Source: Xiphias gladius (lineage: Eukaryota > Chordata > Actinopteri > Istiophoriformes > Xiphiidae). From it: 64,000 nt of DNA. Where the stretch lies: the NCBI RefSeq assembly GCF_016859285.1, contig NC_053422.1, forward strand, positions 14,620,501 to 14,684,500. Direction: 5' to 3'. This document shows, piece by piece, positions 26,565 through 64,000 of this stretch. The position numbers and the translations under genes are program-made. Each line of letters opens with the position of its first letter. Position 1 is the stretch's first letter. The notes under the pieces were generated by a model. That model was not told the origin of the DNA, did no database searches, and saw only the letters and a program-made list of their open reading frames with translations.

Positions 26565-26863
26565 ACCACTGCAGGATGGTGATGCGGGATACATGCACCA
26601 CGTGCAAGTACGTGTACAGGAAAGACTAATGGGAGGAAAAATGACAGAAATTGGCGAGAGGGAAAATGTCGGGGAGGGTGATGCACATAAGTTAAACAGA
26701 AAAAATGACAGAACAAAATAGAAGGAGAGGGTGCTGCAAAAAAAAGCCAGGAAATGGTGTATGTGTGTATGTGTACAAGCACGAACGTTTATCACTACAT
26801 TAGGAGCAGGCAGTACTGAATGTGTCGAACAGACAGTGAGGAGTGTCTGGCTCCCTCGTGTGG

Positions 26864-38099
<11,236 letters not shown>

Positions 38100-40173: not shown

Positions 40174-43100
40174 TTATCTTCTTCTGTGGCGTACTCTTTG
40201 CTTTGGGGAGAGAAGGTTTTCACTGCCAATGTCTGTGTCACCACGATGATATAAATCTCCACGTTTTATCCCTCTTCTCTTCTTCCACCTCTCGTCCTCT
40301 CTGCTCTTCCTATTCCTTCTGACACTTGCCTCATCCCTCCTCTTCTTCTGTGGAGGGGGTATGGACTGCCAGTGACCATGGAGGGGGGACTTGAAGGGGT
40401 CTGCATGGCATGCTTCGTCATCAGAGTTACCCCGGGACCTCCCCAGTAGTACTCCTTCTCGTCTGGCTTGGGCCTTTCTCCTTAGCCTCTTCACCTCCTG
40501 TCTCTCTCTGCGCCTCTCTGGCCACGTCTTCCTCCTGCCAGCTTGGCTAAATTTCTCCTGCTTTGCCCTGCTCCTTCCCTGGACCGCTTGATTCTCCTCA
40601 CCACTCTCCCCTGTTGGTTCAAACAAGTGCTGCTGGTCTGAGGGACGTATGGATCCTGCACTTCCAAGCTCTGAAAACACAAACAACAATTATAAACAAG
40701 ATTCCTTGATAATCAGCGTGAGCCTGTATAGAGTCTAATGTGAGCGGGGCTGCTCACTGAGACAAACCTACAGAGAATTATCAACCAACTCTGCAGCTCC
40801 CCAGCGCTGTACAGAGCATTTAAGCATCTTTCAGCTTATTGTGTTGGTTTCATTGTCCTCAACTTCACTGTTTCACCACATTCCCCAGACTCACCAACCC
40901 TTTTTTCAGCCGCAGCAGGCAGCTGTTTATCAAAATAGCTCTGATAAACCCAACTGCTCAGCACCAAACAGTAGACAGACAAAGTTAGCTCTAGACACTA
41001 GGACAGAGTTGGATGTCACACACACCATAGAGGGATCACAATAATTATCACAATAATAAATAATTATTATTTACTCAAATTACTTCTGTGTTTTCATTGC
41101 TATGTCCAGTAATTGTATTGTTAAAGTGTAACAATTTTGTCATCATATACCTGTGAAAGGTGACCCTTCGAAGATTAGATTGGTTTTAATTATATTGAAA
41201 AAACTCAACTCCATCCCCCTCATAAACATCAATAAAGAGCACCGATAAAACACACTATTTTATGCAAACATTTACATCATTGTATAAATAGTAAATATGT
41301 GTTTTGTCACCTTTGGCTCTTTTCTGCCTCCTGGTACGACATTGGAGGATGTCATCCATAGTGTCATAGTGGCAAACATAGGGAAGAGAAGGAAAAATCC
41401 CACTGACCATTCTCCTCTTAGTGCACTCCTGATACGGACAGAGAAACAGAGACACAGAGGTAGGGAATAATGGAAAAAGTGAAAGATGGATGTGGGATGG
41501 TGAAGAATCGTGTTACAAAAAAAAGTAATTGAGGGAGAGAGAAGAGAGAGTAGAGGAAATTAAAAGTGAGGAAGCAATACTATGAAAGAAAACCAGATAT
41601 AGTGAAGTCCGATCCAAACCAAAGAGAGAGAGAGAGAGGGAGGGGGAGAGAGTATGTCTGCCTTTCTCTTCCCCTCTTTATACGTTTGTCCAACAGAGAC
41701 ATGAGACAGTTTAGAGGGATAACAGAAGCAAAGAACAGAGACAGCATAAGTAAGGGGAGGATTCCTTTCTAATTTCACCACTTACATAGCCATAATGTCC
41801 CCTCTTAGAGCAGTTGTAACAATGAGCGAGGCATCTCTTATGTTTGTGGATGTGGACTTTCCATGGCCTGAGTGGAACCTCTAACCGGATCTGCAAAAAA
41901 GGCCAAACAAAAGAACACTTTTAAACATGGAAAAAGGACATTAGTCACCACGTAAATAAAAAACACCTGCTTAAAATGGTCCTCTGCTATCCTCTGCCAG
42001 CCTCTTTAAAGGATTTCATTTCACTAATTTTGAGCAAAAACACTAAAAAACTCAAATGAGCGGTCTTTCTACAGTGAGCCAAACCTTTTAATTTTTAGAA
42101 GACTGCTTATTAAGAGGTAAGATGAGAAAGGGCTGTAAAGTCAAAACTTGAACTCACCGTCATGTGGTATTGCCTCCATGTATCAGGGCAGGCCTGAGGT
42201 AAACCCAGGAAACAGAGGAGAAAATTACTCTTTTGGGCAAGAATACAGAAAAAAGCAGCGTGTAAATGCACTGAGGATGAGGAACTGTTTGCCGAGATCA
42301 AACAACACTTCATAAATAGGGCCCACACAAGCCTGAGGCCAAAAAAAAAATCTGTCAATGCACAACTGACAAATGCTTTCAAAGTTTCATTCAACACAGC
42401 AACACAAACACTCAAAGAGGCCAGATCTGGGGGCTAACAGACAAACTCACATCAGAGAGGTGTCCTGTCATCCCACAGCGCTGGCAGTGCTGGTTCCATA
42501 CTGGAGGCTTTTCACAGGGCCTGAGGCCATGTGAAAGCAGCCCACAGCTGGGGCAGGGGCGGCTCGGACAGTCCCTCTGGATGTGGCCCTGGATCCCACA
42601 GAGGACACAGGTGGGACATTTCTGCAGACACAGAGACACAAAAAGGTTTCTTTAAAAGGGCTTTAAGATGGGTGTTATGATGTTATATCACCAATCAGTC
42701 TCTAAAGGTGACCATGGGATTACAACAATGCTGATGTCTCTACACAGTTTATGGCAGCCTGAAAGGAAAGATTGAGTACGGTGGTCAATTACAGCAGAGA
42801 TCAGCAGAAGCATAGTGAAAAGGTATTACATATCACAGTATAAAGCGTTAATGTTTTATCATCTATTTTTCAACTTGGTAGCATAATTTCAGGCAAGGGC
42901 ACAGAAATATTCAATGTGTAGGCAGCTGAAAATATGGGGAATGATTTTCAAAACAGAACAAAAGATGAGTGTTTTAACATTCTGCCCCAATTGGACACTT
43001 CGAATAGACCAATGGGACCCCAGGGGCCAGATGCATAAAACTCTGTAGATTCATGACTAAAACTGAATGTGTATGCACAAAGATAGAAATATGCAGAGGC

Positions 43101-46100
43101 ATTCTTTTTGTCAGATTTATAAAGCTGTGTATACGCCTGGTTCTGTTTTATAGATCTCAATCGTGGAAGTGGGCCCAAGTGCACGAGCCTCATTTCCACT
43201 TCCATAGTTCACCATAAATAGATGATGTTACACATCTGTTTGCATACTGATACTTGTGCATGCTCCACCTCTCAGTAGACCTGTCAGTGTGAAGAATGGC
43301 AAAGACAAAATTCAGTTTTACTAATTGTGTCACATTTGCAAGGCTCTCCAACATCATCAGAACAGCTGTCATTGCACACGACCCTGACAGACGGCTGTGG
43401 ATATTTCCAGTGCCCATACTACTGAGGGTATCACACGTATCTGTAAACCATCATTGCAATGATATCTCAATCATAAGAGATATCACTGCAATTCTTTCTG
43501 GAGTTTAATAATCGAGGATAAAATAGTTTGGGATAAAATTAAAAGATCAGTGACGGGGAAATAACACAACAACATAAACCAGACTTCAGAGGAAAAAATT
43601 CAAATTCCTTGTAAATGATCCGGATCTTCCCCAAAATTTAATGGGTTCTTCCCTGGCCCATGCCCCATCCCTCCACCAAGTTCAGCGCAAATCAGTACAG
43701 TAGTTTTTGTGTAATCCTGCTAACAAATAAACAACAAACCAACAAACAGAAACGGGTGATCATAACCTCCTTGGCGGAGGTATTTAAGCCTATACATGAG
43801 CCTTTGATCAAATTTTTACAAATTATTGTCTAGTTTTAGATTTAGAAAATAATAATACAATCACCATAACACAACTAAACAATGTTTTACTACAACATTA
43901 AGCTAGAAGTCTCAGCAGGTGGGTAGGTTTTTCAAGCCAGCAACTGTATCAAACTCCTGTAATGGCTTTTTTTTTTTTTTTGCAACAAAAACATAATAAA
44001 TGCTCACTACTGACAGTGTGAAAGTATATTTTGTGGGTGTAAAAGAAAGAGAGTGCTTGATCCTTTACCTTATGGTAGTAGCAGCTTTTGGCAAGATGTC
44101 CCATCCTGTTGCAGATGTGACAGGTCAGAGAACGACCAGGCACAAAATAGCGGCTGGACAGAGACTGATCAGCACCACATTCGATAATATGAAATATTAA
44201 AAGACAAAGACATGACAATCAACATTCAAAAATCCAATTATGTAAACTCATGCTACCGAGTTCATACTGCAATATTAGATTAAAGCCAACCATAATTTCA
44301 AAAACTAGTTTCTTTCCATCTTTCTTTCCTCTTTTGCCACAGTTTTCTAAATCCATACTGAGAATTGTATTACTCATTGCTTATCTTTAAATGTCCTGTA
44401 ATGTATTTTTTGTATTTGTACAATATTAATTTTTGAATTTTGATCATAAAAAAATGAGTACAAAAAATACTGACTACTACTCAACAGATATTTAAAGTGC
44501 CAGCGGCCTGGATGATAATAGACACACATTTACCTGAATAAATGAGCTCTCCTGTTATAGTCCTCAAAATGGATAGAAAACAAAAGTTACCTTGTCTTTC
44601 TCTGATACAGCCCAAGTATCTTTAAGTGACTTCACATTTGGATCTGTGATGAAGAGATTGACCATGGAGATCATTAAGTTATGCAGATATAAATGTACTC
44701 CACAATGAAAGCCATAATTGAGTGGCTCCCAGGGAGGATACTTCTTGAACTCTACCACCATTTCCAGCCCTTACAAAAGAGGACAGATCAGGAGTTTTAC
44801 TGAGCCTAATAAATGTCGTCTTTCCCAGGTACTTTGCCTTGTAAAAGCTGTTGCGCGGGGCTTAGATACTTGATGAAAAGCATTTGACCTTCCTAAAATA
44901 ACTGTCACTTACATGTGAGGAGAACCCTAAAACCTCTCTGCTCCAGTGGAGCTGTTCGCTGGCAAGACCAGATGAAGTGGCGGTGAAGGACAGCGCCCTG
45001 GTGTGAGTATGAGTATCTTCATTAATGTGAAGCAGAGCATTTCTGAAAAACAGAGTGCATGCTGAGCAAACTGTCTCTGTCCAAGTTTAAAAAATAAATT
45101 GCACCCCCACAGATTTATATAAATCTCTTTAATTCAACACAGAGTAATTGTCTGAGCTGTTAACTCTGCTTCACTATGAAATATTACTGATTATGGAGTT
45201 ATCCGTTATGCTGGGAAAAAGGTTTGTTTCTCGATATAAAACAGATTATTCTAATAGTTGAATAAAAAGAATTTAATAAAAACTTTACTTCAACTTAAGT
45301 TTCCTAAAGAGCAACAGTTGTGTGGTCTGTTTGGTTTGTAAGAACATTCATTATCACCCTGCATCTTTGGTAAGTGGAAGTTATTGTGAGTTCATAGTTT
45401 TACTACAGCAGTAACATAATTTCAAAGAGCCAGAGTGCAAAGCTTTTTTCCCACAACTGAATAACAAATTTTAAAATCCTTCCTTTAATTAAAGCCACCT
45501 GATTTTAATTGAAGAAAAGATTCATCCATAACCACTTCCATATTGTTAAGTAAAAGAAAGTGGTGATATACCTTGAATTTCTGGCCCCTATTTGGTTGAT
45601 TTTTGATTATTAGTTTTTACTGCTACCCCTTGGTAATGTACCATGCCATGGGAAATCGGCCGTCAGTTATGGTCCTTCATGAACTTACACTTACTCCAGG
45701 GCAAAATATGATGAATGTTTGTCCAATCAAATACTGACAAGCAAATTAGTTTTCACAGTTGCAGCAGTATCTTGTTTAATCATGTTTACATGTAAAATCT
45801 ATGAACCTATACTCATGGGTCTGCAGTGATGTTCTCACACAACACACACATTCCCCACAACCAAATTCAGAGGTTAAGCCACACAGTTGTAACCTATGTA
45901 CTTTAAGTCTAATATACACTGGCTAAGCCTAAATATAGGTTACAGACAGGTTTTCATGTCTGATTTTTGTATAGTTATTTCTGTTATCATTGCACGGCAA
46001 AAGATGATCCTTCAGGCCTTGAAGCAGGACGCTCCTCGAACTTCTCTCTGTTTCACTTGTTTTTCCCTCTGGTAAACATTTCAGAAACCCACAATGCAAA

Positions 46101-46575
46101 TTTAACTACTCTAAAAATAATTTTCTTGCACTCGCACTAGGCGTATTCAAACAGGATGACAGACAGCAACACAATGTTAACCTTCATGTCCAGAGTCATC
46201 CTCAGAGCTGCTCCAGTAGCCAAGGTTGAGCTGGATGCTTGAGTCTCCCACTTGCTCCTCTCCTCCTAGGATCATCCACTCCTCCACTGGCTGCTCACTG
46301 TCCTCCTCCTCCTCCTCCTCCTGCTCCTCCTGTAAGGCAGTACTGGAAGCTGGACTGGGGCTGCTGTCCTCCAGAGCCCGTCCAGAGGTGATGGAGAAGG
46401 CCAAGAGAAGAGGAGGAGAGCTTTCCCTGCTGAGCCGTGCAGCTTGTTTACATCTGCTCCCATGCCTCTGGTCACTTAACTCGAACACTCCTTCACCATC
46501 TGAACTACAGGAGTCCGCAACAAAGGCAGCCTCCTCACAATCATCATCCTCTTGGTTTTCCCTGGTGTAGTCCAT
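40174..46575 (-). CDS. zcchc7: zinc finger CCHC domain-containing protein 7
   Basis: Eight exons, all in phase: 46575-46182, 44643-44591, 44164-44069, 42621-42451, 42193-42158, 41890-41786, 41428-41311, 40670-40174 (489 residues). Five CX2CX4HX4C zinc knuckles are visible at C164-C177, C186-C199, C204-C217, C227-C240 and C274-C287; the last two are each split by an intron. The N-terminus is acidic and Ser-rich, with VEEWMILGGEE resembling the human VESWMLLG segment. WRQYH between knuckles 4 and 5 is also shared. The C-terminal exon is Arg/Lys-rich, as in the family. ZCCHC7 is the human counterpart of yeast Air1/2, working with a non-canonical poly(A) polymerase and the MTR4 helicase in nucleolar RNA surveillance. 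The start is the first ATG in the frame. The protein is somewhat shorter than human ZCCHC7 (about 540 residues), mainly at the N-terminus. Intron 1 holds an exon-like segment (44913-45042). Confidence 0.92.
42950..43280. repeat. probable DNA-transposon-derived dispersed repeat
   Basis: Lies in a zcchc7 intron. Segments such as 'TATACGCCTGGTTCTGTTTT' and 'GTGGAAGTGGGCCCAAGTGC' resemble a Harbinger-type fish repeat as I remember it. No transposase frame is present. Confidence 0.35.
43605..43782 (-). repeat. dispersed MITE-like repeat in a zcchc7 intron
   Basis: Reverse-complement relative of 27100-27360: 'CCATGCCCCATCCCTCCACC' here pairs with 'GGTGGAGGGATGGGGCATGG' there. It ends in CCTCCTTGGCGGAGG. 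Confidence 0.65.
44913..45042 (-). other. exon-like segment in zcchc7 intron 1, possible cassette/poison exon
   Basis: On the minus strand CTCTGTTTTTCAG precedes 130 bases that end at a strong GTAAGT donor. The segment is GC-richer than the flanks. One frame is open throughout (beginning NALLHINEDTH). However, zcchc7 exon 1 leaves phase 1 and joins exon 2 perfectly (GAT for Asp), and 130 bases is not a multiple of three. Inclusion would read into TAG inside the segment. It could be a nonsense-inducing cassette exon, an exon of a nested gene, or chance. Confidence 0.3.
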
Positions 46576-49535
46576 AGTACAATGGGACACAAACTGCGGC
46601 TGAACAGCGCCACACAACAACGGCTCGATGCACTGCTGTCAAACAGTGGTGGCTGTCGACTCATTTACTACTACTAACCGGGCAGAAATAAAATTAACTG
46701 CTTTTTCTTTCTTTATTTTGGATATAAACATGCAAAATATCCTCACACGTAGGTTACCGTTAGTCTTACCAGCTTTAAGCTAACATTAATTAGCTCTGTA
46801 GTAGCCGATGGTATTAATGTAGCCAAATTAGCAAACATAGCCAAGTCAAATAAAGTCTATAAAGGCCTTTTTCGGGTCCTTACTGTTTGTAGTTCCCTAT
46901 ATATCTGTTGCGACTTCACGTAAAATCACAATACTAATTTTCCTCCACACAACTGAAGGGACTGTCGCTTCCGTGCTTATTTACACGTGTGAACTACTTT
47001 ATCCGACGTTTCCGGAAAAAGTTGGACAACCAAAACTAAACCCAGCGTTAAAGAAAACAATAAAAAAAAACCACGGAGTTTGGCTGCTAGTGACGTTCCC
47101 GGAGTTCAAATGTTTGGGTTTTTTTTTTGTTTGTTTGTTTTATTTATCATCAGTTGTAATGTGCTAGTCATGAAGTAATGTTAAATGACCGATGTTAATA
47201 ACAGAAACATTATAAGTAGTTGCTGTCAAAAGTTGTTCCCATAGCAACGACCTCAAATCAGTCTACCAAAGAGTTTCGGTACCAGCTGAGAAGGCACCGT
47301 TTATAAAGGATTTATATGATGTAGCCTAATTAATTACTCTATTAATGGTTAATAAAAATTAATGCTGTATATATCAGTTATAATCCATTAATAAGAGTAA
47401 CTTTTGGGTTGCCAGAAAATCCTGCTCTGGCACGACACTTTGTTTCGCTTTTTCGCTCTTTAATTCGTTAGGGAGACCTCTCCAGTGGGCTGTTTGACCA
47501 CTTCTGGAGAAGGGCCGCAGGACACCTGAACCAACCTCCATTTATAACTGCTTATTAACCTTTACAACTCCAGACTTATTCTGATATAATCATTTGTTGA
47601 CTTTCACATAGCGTTTGGATAGCCGTTGATCTGCATGCCAAACTCAAAATAGTACAAATGTAGAGAGAACAATGCAGTAAATGTTGTCCAGAAGATAAGT
47701 TGTCAAACAGTCCAATGGAGAGGTCTGCGTAATGATTTAAAGAGCTAAAAAGACAAGCAAAGTGTTGTGCTGGAGGGAGGATTTTCCACAATCTGCAGTG
47801 ACGGAGCCAAGGGGTGGCCAGGGGTGGCCTGGGCCACCTGTGGTTAAAGTCTGGCCCCTCCACGTGCCACCCTACACAGCGCCGTATTTCAGGTCACTCT
47901 TTTTTTTTTTCTTACACAGAACCGATTCTCCACTGCCGCAGCTCCAACGGGGACGCTTTTTAACAGCGCACTCATCTGGTTGTACTGCCCCTCTCCCACC
48001 CACTCTTGTGTCCATTCAACGCACTTACTGCAGTGGTCTAAGGTGCTGCATTATGGTGCTAAGTTCTGCTGATGGGGGATAAAACCAATGTCACTCCTGG
48101 CAGTATAGTTACCAGCAAGACGTTTCGTTGACAAGTTTGAACTGTTTCATGAATGGAGGTGTTTGCGTGAAGGTTTGGGATTGAGCATACAAGGCATAAA
48201 ATAGCTACTGGCTTTTCATATGGCTGGGATACGTGTGCTGAGTGAGATCTGAGCTCCTGCTGCACACACACAGCGCAACTCGTTCCAAAAAAGTATAAAA
48301 CAGCCTCACCTTGTTTGCTCCCTCTCCTAACATTGTTCACTGTCATCATTAAAACTGATGCACCTACAAAAAGGGTCCAAAGCATCCATGTCTCGTTGTG
48401 TCGGAACATTTTCTCTTCCTAAACAATAGTAGCGCTGATCATAAATACTTTTGCTTTTTTTTTCTGTGGCTGCTTTACAATAATAGCAGCCTGGTGTTTT
48501 GTCAAGGGAGAATTTTACGTGGACGAGCAGCAGCAGGAAATCTTCGGTTAGCATTAGCAGTGTATTTACTGTATACGTGCAGGTGCGGGGGATGAGCTGC
48601 AAATGGAAACAGTGAAGCGTCCGTTTGAAATGTGAAAATTGGAACCGATCGAGGGGGACCCAGAAATGCTGAACCAGCGTGTCGAGCGTATCCAGGAGAC
48701 TCGTGTGGTCAACAGTGTCAAAAGCTGCACTGAGAACTAGAATAAGTTGTTTTCATTTTATTCATTCTCAGGCAGCAGTCGGTCTTTTTCTTATTATTAA
48801 TTCTGATACTGATTTAAATTTGTAAGACTGCACTGTAGGCCCATGTGAACAAGTGGAATTACACTTCACAAAGTCCCAAAGGCTGAATCTTGTACAAATG
48901 ATATATTAAAAATGAGATGGATTACCAGCAGGGTAGCTGCTAATTGGGTCACTGGGGTCGTACCCTCTGTATTTTTTTCTAGGAACTGCATGAGCTTTAC
49001 CCTGAGGTATCAGCCTACATTCAAAAGTTTGTTTGTTTTTTTAAATTTTACACATGGTGGGTTTTTTATCTGCTGATCCCAGCATTTTTAGACCCACTAT
49101 ATATAAATTTAAAATATAGTGCCAACAAAAAATCAAATGGATTTAGTGATCTATTTCTCCCCGATGATTTGAATCCAGGTAGTATGTGGACAATACTTTT
49201 TTTCTGGGGGGGGGGGCTGACTTCTGTATATCAGAAATCCAGACTACAGCACTGACCACTGCGTCCTCCCAGGTAAAATCAAAAAAAGAATAACTGGCCG
49301 CGTGCGCACCAGTGCACGAGTGTCCAATCAAATGAGGCTCGTGCCGCTGAGCGGTGGTCCGCCGCACGGGAGGGAGTCTGGGCAGTGCTCTCTTTAAAAA
49401 AAAAACTTCTTTTATTCGCTTTTTATGTCGGACTGAAAATGGTTCATCCTCGAAAACAACTACACTTTGTCGCCAGCAGCGTTTAAAGTTCAGTTTTTTT
49501 GTTTTTTTTTCTCAGAGTCAGACAGCGGTGTGTTG
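46576..49535. other. intergenic region between zcchc7 and the Pax gene
   Basis: The first about 400 bases are the presumed zcchc7 promoter and 5' UTR. The two genes diverge, with start codons about 3.0 kb apart. The rest has no supported gene. A GC-rich patch at about 47790-47880 (GGGGTGGCC repeats) may be a dispersed repeat. There is a run of ten G near 49207. From 49290 the sequence becomes GC/CpG-richer toward the Pax exon 1, as expected for its 5' UTR. Confidence 0.45.
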
Positions 49536-52500
49536 ATGGAGGTAGGCTTTGGACAGCTGCCGCTCACCGTCACGCGCAGTAAGTAACGGCGTTTCTTATG
49601 AGATTAGAGTGAACGGGGTTGCGGCCGGCAGCCCACACGCGCACCGCAGCGCAGCGCTGCCTGAAATCCCGGCGACGACTGCAACCCTGTCTTTTGACCG
49701 GTGTTTGTCTTTGATCCGCTCCGGTGCTCAGGGCACGGCGGGGTGAACCAGCTCGGCGGGGTCTTCATCAACGGGCGCCCGTTACCGCACGCGGCGAGGC
49801 AGCGCATCGTGGAGCTCGCGCAACTGGGCGTGCGCCCCTGTGAGATCTCCCGCCGCCTGCGCGTCAGTCACGGCTGTGTCAGCAAAATACTGGCCAGGTA
49901 CATTCATTTAGTCTGTTTGTCTGTTTGCACTTCTCAAAACAGGGTCGCATGAGTTAAAAGTGAAAAACAGCCATTTCTTAACATGTTTATCGATAATTTA
50001 GAAAATGTATATGGCTATTTATAAACCGCCCACTTTCACGAAAAGGCCTAAATGCGTTACATTTATTTTCAAATAGCCTAATATTTGACTGTCTGCGTGT
50101 AGTAATTCCAACATAATTTGATATATATGCATGGATTCCACAAAATGTCAGAAAGTGCTCTTTCCTTTCTGCTCAGCGCTGACTGCATCACATCATTTCT
50201 GCAGATTTGTCAGCTGCACATTCATGCTGCCAATCTCCTGTTCCACCACGTCCCAAAGGGTTTCTATTGGACTCAGATCTGGTGACTGGGGAGGCCACTG
50301 ATGCACTCTGAAGTAACGCATTGTCGTGTTCATGAAACCAGTTTAAGATGACTTTTGCTTTGTGTGAATTATCCTGCTGAAAGTAGCTATTAGAAGATGG
50401 TATAAAAAAAAAAAGTGACCAGAAAGGCAGATTCATGAGGATCCAGGCTACATTTTCCCAGTCTTCAACTGTCCAGTTTTGGTGAGCCTGTGCCCACTGC
50501 AGCCTCAGATTCCTGTTCTCGGCTGACAGGAGTGGAACCCCGACGTGGTCTCCTACGGCTGTAGCCCACCCACCTCAACGCTGGACATGTTGTGCATTCT
50601 GAGATGCTTTTCTGCTCCACCGCAGTTGTGAAGTGAGGTTATCTGAGTTACCGCAGCATTTCTGGCCATTCTCCTCTGATCTGTCTCATCAGCAAGGCAT
50701 TTCCGCTCACTGGATGCTTTTTTTTTTTTCACTCCAATCTGAGTAAACGATAGAGATTGTTGTGCTTGAAAATCCCAGGAGATCAGCAGTTTCAGAAGCC
50801 AGCCTCTCTGACGCCAACAATCATGCCACGGTCAACGTCGTCTGCATGATATTATGTATTGCACTGCTGCCAGGTGGTCATAATGAAGTGCTCAGTTGAG
50901 TGTATATGCTTTACTGTCACCCGGTGTCAGAAAACTAGGTTTGAGGCGAAGGCCTTGGGACTTTCAGCAGGACAACGGGCCAAAGCGTTTTAAACTGGCC
51001 AATAATTAGTTATGACCTAAATCCCATTGTAAACCTTTGGAGAGAGCTGAAATCTGCCACTGCAAAAGGGACTCCTGCAAACTTAAAAGAGCTTGAAGGC
51101 ATAGCAATGGAAGAGTGGCAGAACGTACCAGCAGACAGGTGTGAGAAGCTTCTAGATGGCTACAAGAAACGTTTAGAGGCTGCCATTGTAGCCAAAGGCT
51201 CCGCAACCAAATATTAGTGAAGGATTCCATTAATTGTGTCTGGGGTAAATTTTGTGTTTGTATGATTTCACTACTATGCAAGTTGTGTGGTTTTTTTTTC
51301 CCTTTCATTCTGTAACCTTGGACTTTTACTAATATATTTTGATTGTAAAAAATTGGTTAGTTTGCATTAATTTCTGAAAATATTCTAAATTCTGTACTTA
51401 AAATTCAGGGGTGCCAATAATTTCAACCAGGACTGCATAAAAAATAATCTCATGATGAAATGGTTTTCTTTGAATGTGCAGTGGAGCTCTGTATACTTGT
51501 ATATTTCTGAGGTAAGATGTTAACCTCTCCTGACAGATATCAACATTGCTCATTCAGGTACAATGAGACAGGGAGCATCAGACCAGGAGTGATTGGAGGC
51601 TCTAAGCCCAAAGTGGCCACTCCTAGAGTTGTGCAAATGATCCTGCATCTGAAACACACCAACCCAACCATGTTCGCCTGGGAGATCAGAGACAGGCTGA
51701 TGCTGGAGCGAGTGTGTGACCATGACAGCGTGCCCAGCATCAGCTCCATCAACAGGTATAGAGGATCTCACGTGTATGTGTGTGCCCGAAAACACAGATC
51801 GTTAAAATGAGAGTTGAGTGAGTTCCCTGTGTCATTACAGGATCATCCGAAGCAGAGTCCAGTCTGAGTCTTGTGTCGTTGGTAAGCTTTTCCGCCCCTT
51901 CTCCTGTCTCTTGGTATATCTATCTGCCTCTCTCTAACATTTCCTGACGCTGACCTCTGCCACTGCAGTGTCATCAGCATCACCTCTTGCCGTGGGAACG
52001 GCCCATTCGTCTGAGTCCACTTATTCCATCAGTGGCATCCTGGGAATCAGAAAATGCAGCAGTAAACACAAAGAAGGTACTACAATCTGGGAGAGGGATC
52101 GGTGTGTGTGTGCATGTTGTGAAAGTGCATGTATATGAGTGCATCTGATTCTGTTCGTTTGTTTCCATGGTAGACATTTTGACGCGTCGGCCTTTCCATC
52201 AGCTTGAATACAGTCACGAGTTCTGTGCGCATGCATACGTTTCTTCATAGTGTACGGTTTTGGCATTTGGGATACAGGAAATGAATGTACTTTATTGTTA
52301 CGTACTTATAGGGAATGGTACAAGACACTAATGGATGTTAGTGTAACTGTGACTTCACTGCTACTGCCACTCACAAAGTCTGAAAACCTAGCAAAAGGGA
52401 GATCAAAACGCTCTATCAGATGTAATAATTTATTCCTTTATTTTACTTTATTTCCCGAACAGTTTTTACATTGTCCATAATTTGTTTTTGTTTTTTTTTA

Positions 52501-53743
52501 ATTTTCTACTAGCAGCTCCTCCCTTTTTTGCTTATTGTGTATACTTCAGCATCACACTAAAGAAATCAAAATTTGTTCAACATACTGATTTTATTAGAAA
52601 TAATTCTGTCTCTTTACTGTGCGAATGCATTACTAGCTCAGATTAGTAAATTAAATCAGTATGTTGCACGTTGATACACAAAGTATTCTTGGAGTGGGCA
52701 TCTGGGACCAAAGGAAATGTACTTTAAGACACTTCACAGTAACTTGATGTTTCTTACTTCATTTAAAAAAGTAATTAAGTTTTATATTTAGTCACACAAG
52801 CCTGTTTGATTTTTCTTTATTTCAGAAAACCTATGGGGACAGTCAGCGACTCAACACCAATGTCTTTCTGTTCCATTGTTTTCAGAAATTTTCTAGAAAT
52901 TAATATCTTGAGGCAGAAGAAAATAATCCGACTCATATCAAGAAAATGACGCTGAAGCGAACAAGTTGTTTCAGATTGTGAAAAAGAAATGCCCTTATCC
53001 AACGGCAACTTCTTTTTCCTGTGTCTTAATAACAAAATGTAAGATCCCACACAGGATCAAACATCTCATGAAGATGGATGTACTTTCGGAGCAGACAAAG
53101 AGATTACAGTGGGTTTTCTTTGGTACCAGACCACACAGCAGACCGATGAGTAAAGCCGGTGGTCTTGTGTTAATATTAGTCTGAATGAAACAACCTCCGC
53201 AGCAGGAAATCCACCTCACCGCCCCAGGCTTCTGTCCTCCCAGCCAGCAGGCTCTCTGCTCCTCCCTGCCTCCCCCTCACCTTTGCCTCTCATTACAGGC
53301 CTGCTTACACCTCCACTCCTCCATCACTGACGCCATTAAAATAAGAGATCAAATAGATAAATACACACAGTTACACTTGGGAGCACACACATGCACGTGT
53401 TTTGTCATTCTTCTAATTAGAACAAGTGAGGATCACAGTCGGGGGATTTAGGTAAGAAGGAAAATAAAAGTGAACGTGGCCTGGAGCTGTTTTGTTTTTT
53501 CTAGGCAGGGACGTCTCCTGCAGCGTGTACCACGACCAGCCATGTTCCTGTAATGACGCCTGGGGACGGTCTGAGTGCTGCCCGACCTCCGTCTCCAGCC
53601 TGACCTTTTACCCCGGCCTGCCAGCTAATCGTAATCCAAACCTGATAGGTCAGTCTGCATCAAAATATGATCATGATCATGATTATGTCTGGTATGAGTT
53701 CAGCTTTGATGTGTTTTCTCAAAGGCGTTTCTCTCTTGTTTAG
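49536..53743 (+). CDS. divergent, compact Pax2/5/8-class paired box protein
   Basis: Six exons join in phase: 49536-49578, 49732-49897, 51558-51755, 51841-51881, 51969-52076, 53505-53743 (264 residues). The paired domain begins at R15. The N-terminal half carries [11 protein letters not shown] and [13 protein letters not shown]; the C-terminal half carries [18 protein letters not shown] and FAWEIRDRL. These are Pax2/5/8 signatures, as is the intron after the SKILxR segment. The Groucho-binding octapeptide YSISGILGI (168-176) is perfect. The protein is a sequence-specific nuclear DNA-binding factor by family. Oddities: Arg instead of Gln at paired-domain position 42, many substitutions in an otherwise near-invariant domain, no partial homeodomain, no C-terminal transactivation/inhibitory region, and a last exon with five cysteines in about 30 residues that matches nothing I know. 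Mammalian PAX5 spans about 200 kb; this gene spans 4.2 kb. Its place beside zcchc7 and rnf38 suggests a PAX5 relative (inference). Exons 1-5 are secure, exon 6 less so. Confidence 0.82.
50200..50912 (-). repeat. old dispersed DNA element in Pax intron 2
   Basis: Segments such as 'GGAACCCCGACGTGGTCTCC' and 'TGTTGTGCATTCTGAGATGC' match a very common fish repeat as I remember it. The copy is degraded. The start, near 'GCTGCACATTCATGCTGCCA', may belong to a second element. Confidence 0.45.
50960..51437 (+). mobile_element. Tc1/mariner transposase remnant in Pax intron 2
   Basis: A plus-strand frame encodes the C-terminal end of a Tc1-like transposase: [13 protein letters not shown], then [13 protein letters not shown], and KGSATKY before a stop at about 51217. 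It is followed by a non-coding tail ending 'GGTGCCAATAATTTCAACCA'. Upstream transposase sequence, including most of the DDE core, is missing, so the copy is dead. Confidence 0.8.
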
Positions 53744-53919
53744 GGTCCCCATGTCATTACAGCAGAAGGGGGCTGTAAAATATCCAAGAAGAAAGAATAT
53801 CATCCATTTTTGTGCCAATAGAAACCCTGATTTTACAGCTGGATTGACTGAAATTTTATGTGTTACAAAACAATGACATCAAGATAGAAATCTTCATCAC
53901 AATTTGCAAGTATGTTCAA

Positions 53920-57868: not shown

Positions 57869-60822
57869 ATGTCCGTGCACCCCAGAGTCGTCCACAAGAG
57901 GAGGGTGACAATCACAGCTCTGCCTCTGTACTACTCTGGACAGCTGCTGAAGAAACACACCGAAGAGAGGGTGAGGACAAAGAAGAGAAAGAATCAAAAT
58001 GTACAAGTGGAGCGGGAGTAAAAATAATTGGGAATAAAATCCGACAAGCAGGGGATAAATGGTGTGAAATTTCAGTATGGTAAGAATATGTTTGGTAAAG
58101 GTTTTATGACTGTAATGAATTCTGTTTAATCTGTGAGGGCAGCGGAGGAAGACGCAGTCTGATATTTTACTCTCCCGCCCCGACCAACCTTCCTACTCTC
58201 GGCCTCGTCCTCCCCCTCCCCTCCACCAGCCAAAGACAAGCAGGACCACCACAACCCCAACATGCCTTTGTAAGTTAGAAAGTCTCCAGAAAATGTTCTG
58301 TCCCTCGTCGCCGCTCTCTGACAAATACAGAAACAGTCCGGACATCCCCACTTGCAGGTTTTCTGGGTTTTAAGACAAAACAGAACACGAGAAATACAAC
58401 TAAATGGTTATCATGGACGGGGGTTTCAAGCATTTTCGAAAACACAGATGAACATGTCTGTGCCTTTTCCTTTGCCATCTGAAAAGACATACCCGCACCT
58501 TTTTTACCCCTGCAGACAATGAGGAAGTGTTTTTTTTTCCCCTCTTTCTGCAGGTGTTTCTTCGATGTGACTCGGCAGGAGGCCGAGAGGATGCTGGAGG
58601 CAAACCTAGAGTATGGAAGCATCATCCTCCGCCCGTCCACCCTGGCCAACTACTACGCCCTGACCCTCAGAAAACTGACGCCCAGGTCTGAGGATCCATC
58701 TCAGCTTCTGAAATGTACCACTGATTACAGGCTAATGCATGAGTTTATATTTAACTTGCTCTTTTTCATAAATATGAATCTTTGGTTTTGGAGTTTCTCT
58801 TTTAAATCAGTGCTTCAATACATATATTTTGCTCTTGTGAGCCATTGAAAACATACAAGCACAGGAAGAGAAGGGTCCAATAGAATTTAATTAACCAGGA
58901 CAGGAATCGATTTCAAAATTTGAAAGACAGACGTAGACAGACGTGCAGACAAAAGTAAAAAGGTGATAAGTTTGGATGACAAATGTTTTTTCTTCACCCA
59001 AATTTAACAAGTGTTACTGTAGAATCAACAGTGTCTCGTCAGCATATGGATAATTTGCATTTCAGTGTGATGTAATTATCATCACGATCAGTAACCATGA
59101 GATGCTACAGCTGAAAAAGGGATCATCATACGGATTAGTAACTGTTGTTCACTCAAATTATCAGAGGCAAAGTCACCAGTAGGTTAATAATTCTCCTTGT
59201 GTTTCAGTGGGCCTGTCGTGAAGAACTACAGAGTGACCTCCACAAACTCAGGGTTTGTGATTGAATAGTAAGTCCCACAGCTCACAACTTAGTACAACTT
59301 TTAACTAACGTGGACATCAGGCAAATGTGGCATTCGGTGAAAGAAATTAATCTAAGGGAAATTTAAAAAAAAAAAACTGGCCAACAAATGATTTCTGTCC
59401 TGCAAAGCAGACTGTTGATCGGGCTCCTTCTTGATTTCAAGTGGGTATTACACTTAGAACTTCCACCCTGCATGGTGTTAAAGGGGCCTGTGTATTTGTC
59501 TTACCGGCAGATGACCAGTGAATGACTCAAAAATGTACTCAATCCTGTTGAACCTGCGTAGGATATATATCGACGCAGTATATTTTCAATGGCATCAGTG
59601 CCTCAAGTTGGGAAAGTGACGGGCCTCTCCTGCCACCATATATACCCAAAACAAGAGTGTGGACTTGCATGGACAGGCTTATTGGCCCTCTAATGATTGT
59701 TCTCCACCACTGCAAGAGTCAGACAAAGCCTGGTTTTGCTGAGTGGCTCAAATTAATGACAGACATTGCCTCTTTTGAATCTCTAAGTGTGGTGTCATTA
59801 TTTCAATGCACAATATATAAAGAAAGTAAAACAACAGGAAGTAAATATTCCCACTATTTTTATGATTAAAATGTGCTACCCCGGTTATGTTGTATTTGTG
59901 TGGTATTTTATTCAAACTTTGTGCCCCTCCTTTCTAATCTTATTTGTATTAGCTACCTCTAGGTGCTAAGATGTGTCCTTTTTCTGTTCTGTTTGCTGTT
60001 ACCTGTTAACTGATTTATTGTAATATGTTGTCTTATGTTGCATTGTGTCTTTTTGTTTGTTGGAATAGTGGGATTCTACAGATTTAATTTAGTTCACAGT
60101 CTACATTATACAGAGAGCGCAGTACAGGAAATGATCTAAATTCAGCCATGGAACTGTCATAAAAATCTTCAAACTGGCCTCCTTTTGCTTCACTTCCTTT
60201 ACTTTCCTCTCTGCAGGTGACAGTCTTCTCTTTGAATGATGTACTTAAATACTTCCTTGATAGGACAGACTACCGTCTTCATCCCTACGTGGCATCTCAG
60301 CCCTACGACACTCGGATCGGTGAGTAGAACGCTGCTTTTAGAAACAGTCTCAGTTTTACTGACAGGTACAAGTGCAAGAGCACAGCTCCTAGCAGGGTTT
60401 GTGTGTGCATTTGACAGAGGTGTCACCCGCTCCGAAGTGCATCAGCATCACCTCACCTACGCCTAAAACGGTACCCAAGGCGGAAGTGGCACCCATGCCG
60501 CGGTCGCAAACCGCAGAGGAGCCTGATGATCACAACCTAAAAGATAGGTGAGAACGAGTTTGAGTATTTGTTTTAACATGAGTATTTATCAGAGCTCCTC
60601 TAGGTTTGAATTAAGGTGTATCTATGACCGAGTTAAGTGTAAATGAGTGACATTTGTGTGTTTTTGTCTAAACTAGTTCAGTTGGACAGTGAGCTTCGGC
60701 GAGTTTTGAATTCCCGGAGGGAAAACATCTACAGCGCGAGTGGCGAGGAGGAAGACTCCTACTATGAGAATCCAACCACTGAAAAACCCCACTCTTGCAC
60801 TACGAAGAGTACAGCAGTGTGA
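57869..60822 (+). CDS. STAP-family SH2 adaptor-like gene, PH domain mostly lost, possibly decayed
   Basis: Exon-like segments: 57869-57970, 58230-58269, 58554-58685, 59208-59267, 60217-60319, 60418-60547, 60690-60822. The first encodes VTITALPLYYSGQLL, matching the start of the STAP1 PH domain (ITALPLYFEGFLL). The next segments give an SH2 domain: CFFDVTRQEAERML, GSIILRPSTLANYYALTLR, VVKNYRV, DVLKYFLDRT. The C-terminal exons are open and end with a Tyr-containing SYYENP motif. STAP proteins link receptor and cytosolic tyrosine kinases to downstream signalling through PH and SH2 domains. Two defects appear. Only 259 bases separate the first two segments, with no exon for the rest of the PH domain, and their phases do not match. 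The 59267/60217 junction is out of phase and creates TAG. The last junctions are in phase. It may be a pseudogene, a gene with unseen splicing, or an assembly error. Whether it is nearer STAP1 or STAP2 is unclear. Confidence 0.65.
59640..59960 (+). mobile_element. probable L1/Tx1-type LINE 3' remnant
   Basis: Lies in an intron of the STAP-like gene. The frame at 59657-59869 contains FAEWLKLMTDIASFESLSV, resembling the W-L-...-E/FE-K/SL pattern near the C-terminus of fish L1-like reverse transcriptase proteins. It is short and the match is from memory. Confidence 0.35.
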
Positions 60823-61665: not shown

Positions 61666-63903
61666 TTACTTCTCGGTGAGTGACAGCTGTAGGATCCGCT
61701 CCAGCTCCTCCTCTTCCTCCTTCTGCTTCCTGTGGCAAACATTAAGACATAAAAGGTCACCAGTCAGACAAAAATTAAAATTAAAATGAATTAAAATTAC
61801 CGCTTTACAGGAATAGATTACTCTTCCTCACCATAACTGAAGTTTTATTTCAAACAACGAACAACAGCTAATGATGTTATTCCTCCGTTTGATCATATTT
61901 GTACATAACATTTTAAGTTAAAATAAACAAAAAGCTAACGTTACAGAATGGTTTGATTTGGCAGCATATCAGTTTTAATTCCTCTGAACGGTATATGGGA
62001 GCATCTGACCATGTTTATAGTGCTGACCTGAGGGTTTTACTGTGTGCAATGGCAGGGAGGGGAAGTCTGTTGCACACAGCAATGTTGGCAGGTTGTTTCA
62101 GGTTGTCTGTCTGACACACTTGTTGATGAATGCTGCTCTGCAATATGAGTATGGGATTTGAACCATTTGCAAAGTTTGTATAGTAAGCTACCATAGTCTA
62201 ATAGTCGCATGGTAGCATTAATGGGGTTTGGAGAAGGCGTTGTTTGTATGTTTCAGTGAATAAGATAAGCTCCAGTAAACGGACACACAAGAACAGATGC
62301 GCTAAAAGTACCGGGTTCCTGCAGGTATTTTTTTCTAGTAGAGTTTATTTTCAATTTTATTTTATTTGATTAAATGCTTTAATCTCAGTTTCACAGTATT
62401 CAACCCTAGTCACAGATTATAGCGACCGAGGGCAACACTGTACTTGAAATTCATCAAGTATCTTGTTTTCCAATTTCGCGTTTCAAGTTTCCAGAATATC
62501 ACAAACAAATCTGACTTCTTTAGCCAATCAGTCGATAATTACTCAGCCACTGCCTGACTGTCAAACATCACAAATACCAGGGCTACTCAAACTCGTCTAC
62601 TCACGCGTGTCATTAATAGGGCTGCAGATAACCGTTAATTGATTAATCCACTGATTTAGTCCATAAAATGTCAAAACAAATTGTATAAATAAATAAATAA
62701 AAAGAGCAATTTCCAAGACTCCAAAGTTACAACGTCTAAATTCTTGTGTTGACTAACCAACAGTATAAAACCCAAACGATATTAAGTTTACCATCATAAG
62801 ACGAAGAAAAGCAGCAGATTGTTACATCTGAGATGCTTGAACCAGCAAATGTTGGGCATTATGGCTTGAAAAATGACAGGAGCGATCAATTCATTATCAA
62901 GACAGTTGCCGATAAATATTTTTTCAATCGACTAACTGAGTAATTGCGTCATCATTGCAGCTCCAGTTGTGACCTCATCCTCGTTGCACCACCTCCTCAT
63001 TAATGTGCACAACTAACAGCGTGAAGCGATGACACAAAGAGTTTGTTTCCTTGCATTTGGATGTTGGGAGATTTCGACACCCCGCTGTGTCACAGATGTC
63101 GTTTGTCTCCCTGCTGTGCTAAAACAGAGTCTGAGATGGAAGAGCTGGGGGAGAAGCAGGGAGCCTAAGTTCTCTAAAGCCCACACAATGCAGTCTGTGA
63201 ACTGCTTTCTAATACATGCCATGATAAAAAAAATGTCTTTATTCTAATTTTTCATCTGTAACCATGGTGGTGCAGTGGCGTGTGGGTTTCCTCTGGGTGC
63301 TCTGGTTTTCTCCCACATACCAAAGACAGACAGGTCGGGTCCACAGGCGAGATTATGAGTGTGAATGACTGTCGACATGCACATTATCCCTGGGATAGAC
63401 TGGCAAGCTGGATAAAGATAAGTATAGATAACGGATGAATGGACCGTCATCTTCTCCCTGCTTTCCTTGTGAGTTCTCTTTGGCTCTCGTGCATCTAAAA
63501 ATTACTCACAAGAGCGACACAAACAAAATCAAAACTTCTGAAAACAACAAGCACTTGTTGTCGAGCAGTAACCACTAAGTCGAGCTGATTCGAATGTGAT
63601 GTTTTTGTCTCAGGTAATCTAATGCATGGCAGACTGCTCATATTTGTCTTTGTATTCCTCCTGCTTCACCTGTCTATCTCTTCCTGCTCCCTGCACGACA
63701 GCTCCATGGCGATGCGCAGCTGCTCGTCGAAGCTCGTCGCCACACCCAACTGTCCTGACAACCGGGGATCAGTCACGGCGCTGTAGGAGATCGGGGAGTT
63801 GGAGGTAGGGTCCAACGGGGAGACGGAGGAGGGCTGGCTGGGGTCGGACGTGTCTTCTCCCTCTCTGCTGGCCAGTGAGATGGACAGGGACTCCTGAATC
63901 GCC
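61666..63903 (-). CDS. ankyrin repeat domain 13 family protein, C-terminal two exons (partial)
   Basis: Two exons are in the window: 63903-63670 and 61729-61666, joined in phase. Upstream exons lie beyond the right edge. The visible 99 residues carry three ubiquitin-interacting-motif-like helices: AIQESLSIS, then FDEQLRIAMELS, then EEELERILQLSLTEK at the very C-terminus. Repeated UIMs with short acidic and Ser/Pro linkers are the C-terminal pattern of ANKRD13A/B/D. Those proteins bind Lys63-linked ubiquitin on internalised receptors such as EGFR at the membrane and endosomes. The last UIM has Ile where the consensus has Ala. The N-terminal ankyrin repeats cannot be seen, so the paralogue is not assigned. 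The about 1.9 kb intron contains a MITE-like copy (62627-62970) and a SINE-like copy (63263-63442). Confidence 0.82.
62627..62970 (+). repeat. dispersed MITE-like repeat with ATTGATTAATC-type ends
   Basis: Begins 'AGGGCTGCAGATAACCGTTA' with 'ATTGATTAATCC' and 'TCCATAAAATGTCAAAACAA', and ends 'AATTGCGTCATCATTGCAGC'. Same family as 33103-33430; diverged copy. Confidence 0.55.
63263..63442 (+). repeat. SINE / LINE-tail copy
   Basis: 'GGTGGTGCAGTGGCGTGTGG' followed by 'GTTTCCTCTGGGTGCTCTGG', 'CCCTGGGATAGACTGGC' and a tail resembling 'GATAACGGATGAATGGA'. Related to the copies at about 55255-55510 and 4590-4680; the tRNA-like head is deleted. Confidence 0.65.
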
Positions 63904-64000
63904 CTGAGAAAAGAAAGAAATCCGTGGTATTAAGATTTAAACTGAAGTATTATTAAACAAAGAAGAGTATCTTAACAGGAAAGTTTCACTGCTGGGCTTC

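Follow-up and report, generated by a model that had tools for sequence, protein, structure and literature searches.

The window analysed here, a 64,000-nucleotide stretch of the Xiphias gladius genome (C23:14620501-14684500; 690.8 Mb of this genome were searched), contains a compact pax gene that is very probably a coding duplicate of pax5 lacking exons 6-8. Pax5 is a regulator of B cells and the brain, and the conventional copy of its gene was found on another contig, C15. The window gene is a Pax2/5/8 member by descent and a variant by architecture, being most likely made up of Pax5 exons 1-5 plus 9 and 10. Its identification as a second pax5, for which I use the name pax5b, is well supported: the synteny carries it and the trees agree with it. 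The best explanation as a whole, to which I would give a probability of about 0.5, is that this shortened duplicate acts as a competitor or corepressor alongside the full-length proteins of its class.

The gene occupies 49536-53778 of the forward strand and reads as seven open exons with consistent phases, and all six introns are bounded by GT and AG in a splice-site reading (Table 1). The paired domain is split over exons 2-4 and is complete (Pfam PF00292, residues 16-139, E 2.3e-65), its best PDB match is PAX5 (1k78, E 3.3e-67) with PAX8 next, and the octapeptide YSISGILG is intact, which bears out the initial annotation, made from the letters of the stretch, of six in-phase exons with a full paired domain and an intact octapeptide. 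That annotation let the last exon run on to 53743. The frame of exon 6 is open that far, and a protein read through in this way would have 264 amino acids; more likely, exon 6 ends at a donor after 53648 and is spliced to an acceptor before 53744, which opens a seventh exon that had been missed, giving a spliced protein of 244 amino acids. Exon 1 and the start codon are the part of the gene model held with the least certainty, and exon 1 showed no clear likeness to the first exon of C15 pax5 (MEIHCKHDPF...). In exon 5, the basic stretch KRKRDEG of C15 pax5 has become SSKHKEG. Within intron 2, at 50945-51217 of the window, a remnant of a Tc1/mariner-like transposase C-terminus was recognised by eye.

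Table 1. Positions in the window of the pax gene and of the genes beside it
Feature	Positions	Strand	Remarks
Exon 1	49536..49578	+	Proposed start codon; 14 codons + 1 nt; donor A|gtaagt
Exon 2	49732..49897	+	Paired domain, N-terminal half; 73% in blastn against C15 pax5 exon 2 (171 columns)
Exon 3	51558..51755	+	Paired domain, linker and C-terminal half; 75% in blastn against C15 pax5 exon 3 (206 columns)
Exon 4	51841..51881	+	End of paired domain
Exon 5	51969..52076	+	Octapeptide YSISGILG; 82% in blastn against C15 pax5 exon 5 (44 columns)
Intron 5	52077..53504	+	Site of exons 6-8 in normal pax5; none recognised by three-frame reading, tblastn or splice-aware exon scoring
Exon 6	53505..53648	+	Most likely Pax5 exon 9 in diverged form, ~20 residues inserted; from alignment, splice-aware scan and phase
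Exon 7, coding part	53744..53778	+	Most likely a shortened Pax5 exon 10; stop TAA at 53776-53778
Poly(A) signal AATAAA	53920..53925	+	
zcchc7 copy	40231..46584 (extent of exons used)	-	Zinc knuckles; head to head with the pax gene
rnf38 copy	26850..33965 (approximate)	-	RING exons match RNF38 (4v3k, E 3.2e-48)
stap1-like gene	58555-60822	+	SH2 exon with best PDB match STAP1 (3maz, E 2e-6); downstream of the pax gene

The end of the gene had been described as an exon unrelated to Pax, which is most likely wrong: judged by alignment, boundary and phase, exons 6 and 7 most likely correspond to Pax5 exons 9 and 10 in diverged form. With 5000 shuffles per alignment, one shuffle (1/5000) aligned with exon 9 of C15 pax5 as well as exon 6 did, and the corresponding counts for exon 9 of pax2a, pax2b and pax8 were 9, 3 and 150. 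Exon 7 alone was matched by 54/5000 shuffles for pax5, 75/5000 for pax2a and 161/5000 for pax8; it starts at the same acceptor position and in the same phase as exon 10 (SPYYYS) in the other four Pax2/5/8 genes of this genome, and exons 6 and 7 together share their boundary and phase with Pax5 exons 9 and 10. A splice-aware scan of seven stretches ranked exon 6 first of 343 exon 9 candidates, with a score of 17.0 vs 13.0 for the best chance candidate. Exon 8, which also starts with GRD, was rejected as the origin of exon 6, as 155/5000 shuffles did equally well compared to 1/5000 for exon 9.

In C15 pax5, exon 6 with the partial homeodomain (GRDFLRKQMRGELFS...), exon 7, and exon 8 (the LPGYPPHVPP exon) sit between exons 5 and 9, and the window gene is without them. 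Queries of the exon 6 (from pax2a and pax2b), exon 8 and exon 9 types returned nothing credible by tblastn within 48-60 kb of the window (best E shown 0.63), a test that was insensitive because the same search missed the exon 9 remnant. In a second test, all open segments between an AG and a GT in the correct phase were scored in intron 5 and in control stretches: the top scores in intron 5 were -7.5 for exon 6, -2.0 for exon 7 and 2.0 for exon 8, and those in the control stretches 4.5, 7.5 and 20.5. The homeodomain remnant, which had been reported as missing, was thus recognised between window exons 5 and 6 neither by reading, nor by the insensitive tblastn search, nor by an exon scoring that was no better than in the controls. 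A partial homeodomain is present in the genes on C15, C9 and C11, and was not seen in C20 pax8 with the patterns used. As for the companion claim that the transactivation region is absent, exons 6-8, which include the start of that region, went unrecognised and no exon of the exon 8 type (C-terminal region) was found in the window, but exons 9 and 10 appear to be retained in diverged and shortened form.

The origin of the gene is told by its neighbours. A copy of zcchc7 lies head to head with it, and a second zcchc7 was found on the reverse strand of C15, ~50 kb before the forward-strand pax5, making a divergent pair there too. The window also has a copy of rnf38, identified from its RING exons; the query without the RING had no PDB match. 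RNF44 is an older relative of RNF38. The nearest other rnf38 copy is located at 26.51 Mb on C15, 9 Mb away, and a weaker further match at C23:20.1 Mb. RNF38 lies near PAX5 in human as well. Human PAX5 adjoins ZCCHC7 (PMC9640836; the literature is represented here and below by excerpts of the papers). Copies of pax5, zcchc7 and rnf38 are common to C15 and C23, and the presence of zcchc7 and rnf38 on both contigs therefore marks the window gene as a probable pax5 duplicate. Two contigs sharing three genes is the pattern left by the whole-genome duplication of teleosts, most likely the ancient event from which pax5b and C15 pax5 would both descend. The earlier proposal of a diverged PAX5 ohnologue is hence well supported by synteny, with agreeing trees and a conventional pax5 on C15.

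To place the gene within its family, a six-frame PF00292 search of the whole genome was used, which yielded 31 matching stretches, six of them weak (E 6e-5 to 7e-4). I grouped the 25 strong ones into 14 loci, five of which belong to the Pax2/5/8 class: the window gene, C9 pax2a (MDIHCKADPF, YSINGILG), C11 pax2b, C15 pax5 and C20 pax8, the last four named by their own motifs. The conventional pax5 that the initial annotation had proposed to look for elsewhere in the genome was thus located; it runs from exon 1 at ~17255534 to exon 10 at ~17301706 and spans ~46 kb, compared to ~4 kb for the window gene. The only recognised candidate for its exon 1, at ~17255534, is of the pax2-like MEIHCKHDPF type, and a look by pattern found no MDLEK-type first exon before its exon 2. 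Two further loci have a similarly split paired domain, on C8 (Pax6 type) and C2 (a type outside Pax2/5/8), and the remaining seven were classed by match pattern only.

The window gene grouped with C15 pax5 with an ultrafast bootstrap (UFBoot) support of 70 for the paired domain and 71 for an extended, hand-aligned set of paired domain, octapeptide and exons 9/10, from which the exon 6 insertion and the unalignable C-terminal tail were omitted. This placement was the best of six tested on both alignments, and under a codon model it beat a placement with pax8 by 6.3 units of log-likelihood (lnL); R63, R106 and S112 are residues common to the window gene and C15 pax5. On the extended alignment, the approximately unbiased (AU) test excluded three placements, namely with pax2, with pax2b, and outside the Pax2/5/8 class. 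Protein and codon trees thus agree with a pax5 identity, and are not decisive alone.

The proposed mechanism starts from what is observed, namely the genes and what surrounds them, which exons are present, and the past constraint on the paired domain. By dropping exons 6-8 and retaining 1-5, 9 and 10, pax5b would have kept the DNA binding of the paired domain and the octapeptide, known from Pax5 as a docking site for Groucho/TLE, and would be without the partial homeodomain as well as a portion of the transactivation region. Such a protein would bind a subset of Pax2/5/8 sites and reduce their output, both by competing with full-length Pax2/5/8 and by recruiting Groucho-type corepressors. The octapeptide interacts with Groucho-family corepressors (PMC4488758), exons 8-9 have been credited with PAX5 transactivation, and PAX5 fusions keeping the paired domain were dominant-negative in some studies (both PMC9456430). 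Drawn from the retained parts of the gene and from such PAX5 variants, this mechanism may be correct, at slightly less than even odds; it competes mainly with a change in DNA specificity and with late decay.

The paired domain of the window gene shows 76-81% identity with its counterparts in the four remaining Pax2/5/8 genes of the genome (81% with C15 pax5), which among themselves are 91-98% identical, corroborating the earlier description of a fast-evolving domain. At 24/128 positions it has residues unseen in the six Pax2/5/8 sequences compared, and relative-rate counts against C15 pax5 with four outgroups were 23:0, 23:0, 22:0 and 12:0, the two counts of 23:0 being those with pax2 outgroups. 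Many of these residues of its own fall at 78-89, others at 30, 31, 37, 41, 54 and 57. This pattern is what a neofunctionalised factor might display, whose paired domain has shifted in specificity towards a target set of its own rather than competing at Pax2/5/8 sites. Nevertheless, the linker has no such residue and the C-terminal recognition segment a single change, V116I: linker and the two recognition helices, with assumed limits, changed at 3/42 positions vs 21/86 elsewhere (Fisher p 0.028), and I consider a shifted specificity rather unlikely. The equivalents of R38, P80 and R140 of human PAX5, which are mutated in leukaemia (PMC9640836), are unchanged in the window gene.

Constraint was estimated on 136 codons (the paired domain minus two split codons, plus ten octapeptide codons) with a hand-written codon model and two assumed trees. 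On the branch of the window gene omega was 0.014, and lnL dropped by 1.4 at an omega of 0.05, by 3.5 at 0.1 and by 9.4 at 1, a drop of 1.92 being reached between 0.05 and 0.1. Neutral evolution (omega = 1) on this branch was rejected (2 delta lnL 18.9), and with no broken frame or splice site a pseudogene was discarded as an explanation. A decaying duplicate, its frame still open and its function fading, with exons 6-8 gone and the ends degenerating, would fit the loss of three exons, the shortened C-terminus, the weakened basic stretch and a span of ~4 kb compared to ~46 kb for C15 pax5. Seven open exons, six GT/AG introns, an intact octapeptide and the rejection of omega = 1 over the whole branch argue against it, and I consider decay improbable, somewhat more so than a shift in specificity.

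Several observations weigh against a shortened pax5 duplicate acting as competitor and corepressor. The synonymous sites of the window gene are saturated, so that omega indicates constraint over most of the history of the domain and not that constraint persists; this constraint was seen in one fish genome, and a recent relaxation may have occurred. The AU test of the paired domain alone, the phylogeny that the initial annotation had suggested as a check, excluded none of the six placements (lowest p 0.051) although the best was with C15 pax5, and on the extended alignment it kept the positions as sister to all Pax5 (p 0.27) and with pax8 (p 0.16). Four-fold sites differ from pax5 at 40/55 and from pax2a at 26/53, counts that were given little weight because the sites are saturated and base composition differs. 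The exon 9 queries failed to pick up exon 6 by tblastn within 48-60 kb, and its margin of 17 vs 13 over the best chance candidate is modest. On the functional side, exons 9/10 lie in or near the activation/inhibitory region, which makes the absence of activation uncertain; the basic stretch that follows the octapeptide is weaker; positions 54 and 57, which close the presumed first recognition helix, carry changes that could alter or weaken DNA binding; and other studies give PAX5 fusions targets of their own instead of a dominant-negative action (PMC9456430).

It is also quite improbable that the gene model is incomplete, with exons 6-8 present in unrecognisable form or the read-through form in use: the open frame up to 53743 would allow for the latter, but the homology of the last two exons to exons 9/10, their shared junction and phase, and the failure of any intron 5 candidate to rise above the control stretches speak against both. 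A lost fourth Pax2/5/8 gene from the two early vertebrate genome duplications would fit the saturated synonymous divergence from pax5 and the surviving position as sister to all Pax5, but is very improbable given that the nearest other zcchc7 and rnf38 copies are on C15, the contig of pax5, and that R63 and S112 are common to the window gene and fish pax5 and not to human PAX5.

Of the surroundings, the window zcchc7 is ~40% identical to its C15 copy (C15:17204846-17205235) over the zinc knuckles, a strong divergence like that of the adjoining pax gene, and the two may have accelerated together. STAP1 is a B-cell adaptor, and no second copy of the stap1-like gene was found in the genome. An exon on the reverse strand at 63666-63929 may encode a ubiquitin-interacting motif, its Pfam match (UIM_2, E 0.11) lying below cut-off. 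Comparing 46.5-64 kb of the window with 50 kb of C15 by blastn, I accepted no shared conserved non-coding element: the matches were exons 2, 3 and 5, a CA-type repeat at 57.4 kb (two matches), and a weak 73-base match at 55.26 kb that was taken for a repeat. No relatives were confirmed in viral and genome contig collections, as expected for a fish gene.

Within the excerpts available, a chordate PAX survey has no extra PAX5 or PAX8 copy in its eight ray-finned genomes (PMC3759438), and the only teleost duplicates named in the Pax2/5/8 class are those of pax2 (PMC2532684). Among the open-licence matches listed, no title or start of an abstract described a second teleost pax5. An eel blood gene panel has an entry 'paired box protein Pax-5-like' (PMC9780358), and such fish genes may already carry automatic names in annotation databases; the human literature also uses PAX5B for an isoform (PMC9456430). 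If true, a retained second pax5 whose paired domain evolves fast and in which the loss of exons 6-8 is fixed would offer a natural experiment on what PAX5 can do without, and the inhibitory role proposed for truncated PAX5 in human B cells and leukaemia would become testable in a normal gene. More speculatively, and on balance doubtful, a teleost lineage might devote a separate gene to a product that mammals may obtain by splicing: a PAX5 lacking exons 6-8, fixed in the germline and under purifying selection, that serves full-length pax5 as a competitor or corepressor partner and possibly tunes B-cell or mid-hindbrain programmes.

Compared to C15 pax5 and vertebrate PAX5, the window gene has the same order and phases of the exons it kept, and shares with them the paired domain, YSISGILG, the ERVCD and NPxLxGSPxxYS signatures, and zcchc7 head to head. 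Proteins of the Pax1/Pax9 class likewise combine a paired domain and an octapeptide with no homeodomain (PMC4488758). Membership in that class was rejected on exon structure: the presumed pax1/9 loci (two on C10, one on C4) have their paired domain in a single exon, whereas that of the window gene lies in three and comes with Pax5 residues and neighbours. Leukaemia PAX5 fusion proteins resemble it in retaining paired-domain DNA binding without the normal C-terminus (PMC9456430), but these are somatic and the window gene is germline. The closest counterpart in make-up is found among human PAX5 transcripts, for which forms lacking exons 6-7-8 have been reported (PMC9456430): such an isoform joins exons 1-5 to 9 and 10, as the window gene appears to do, but it is an alternative transcript of a full gene, whereas in the window the gene itself is without recognisable exons 6-8.

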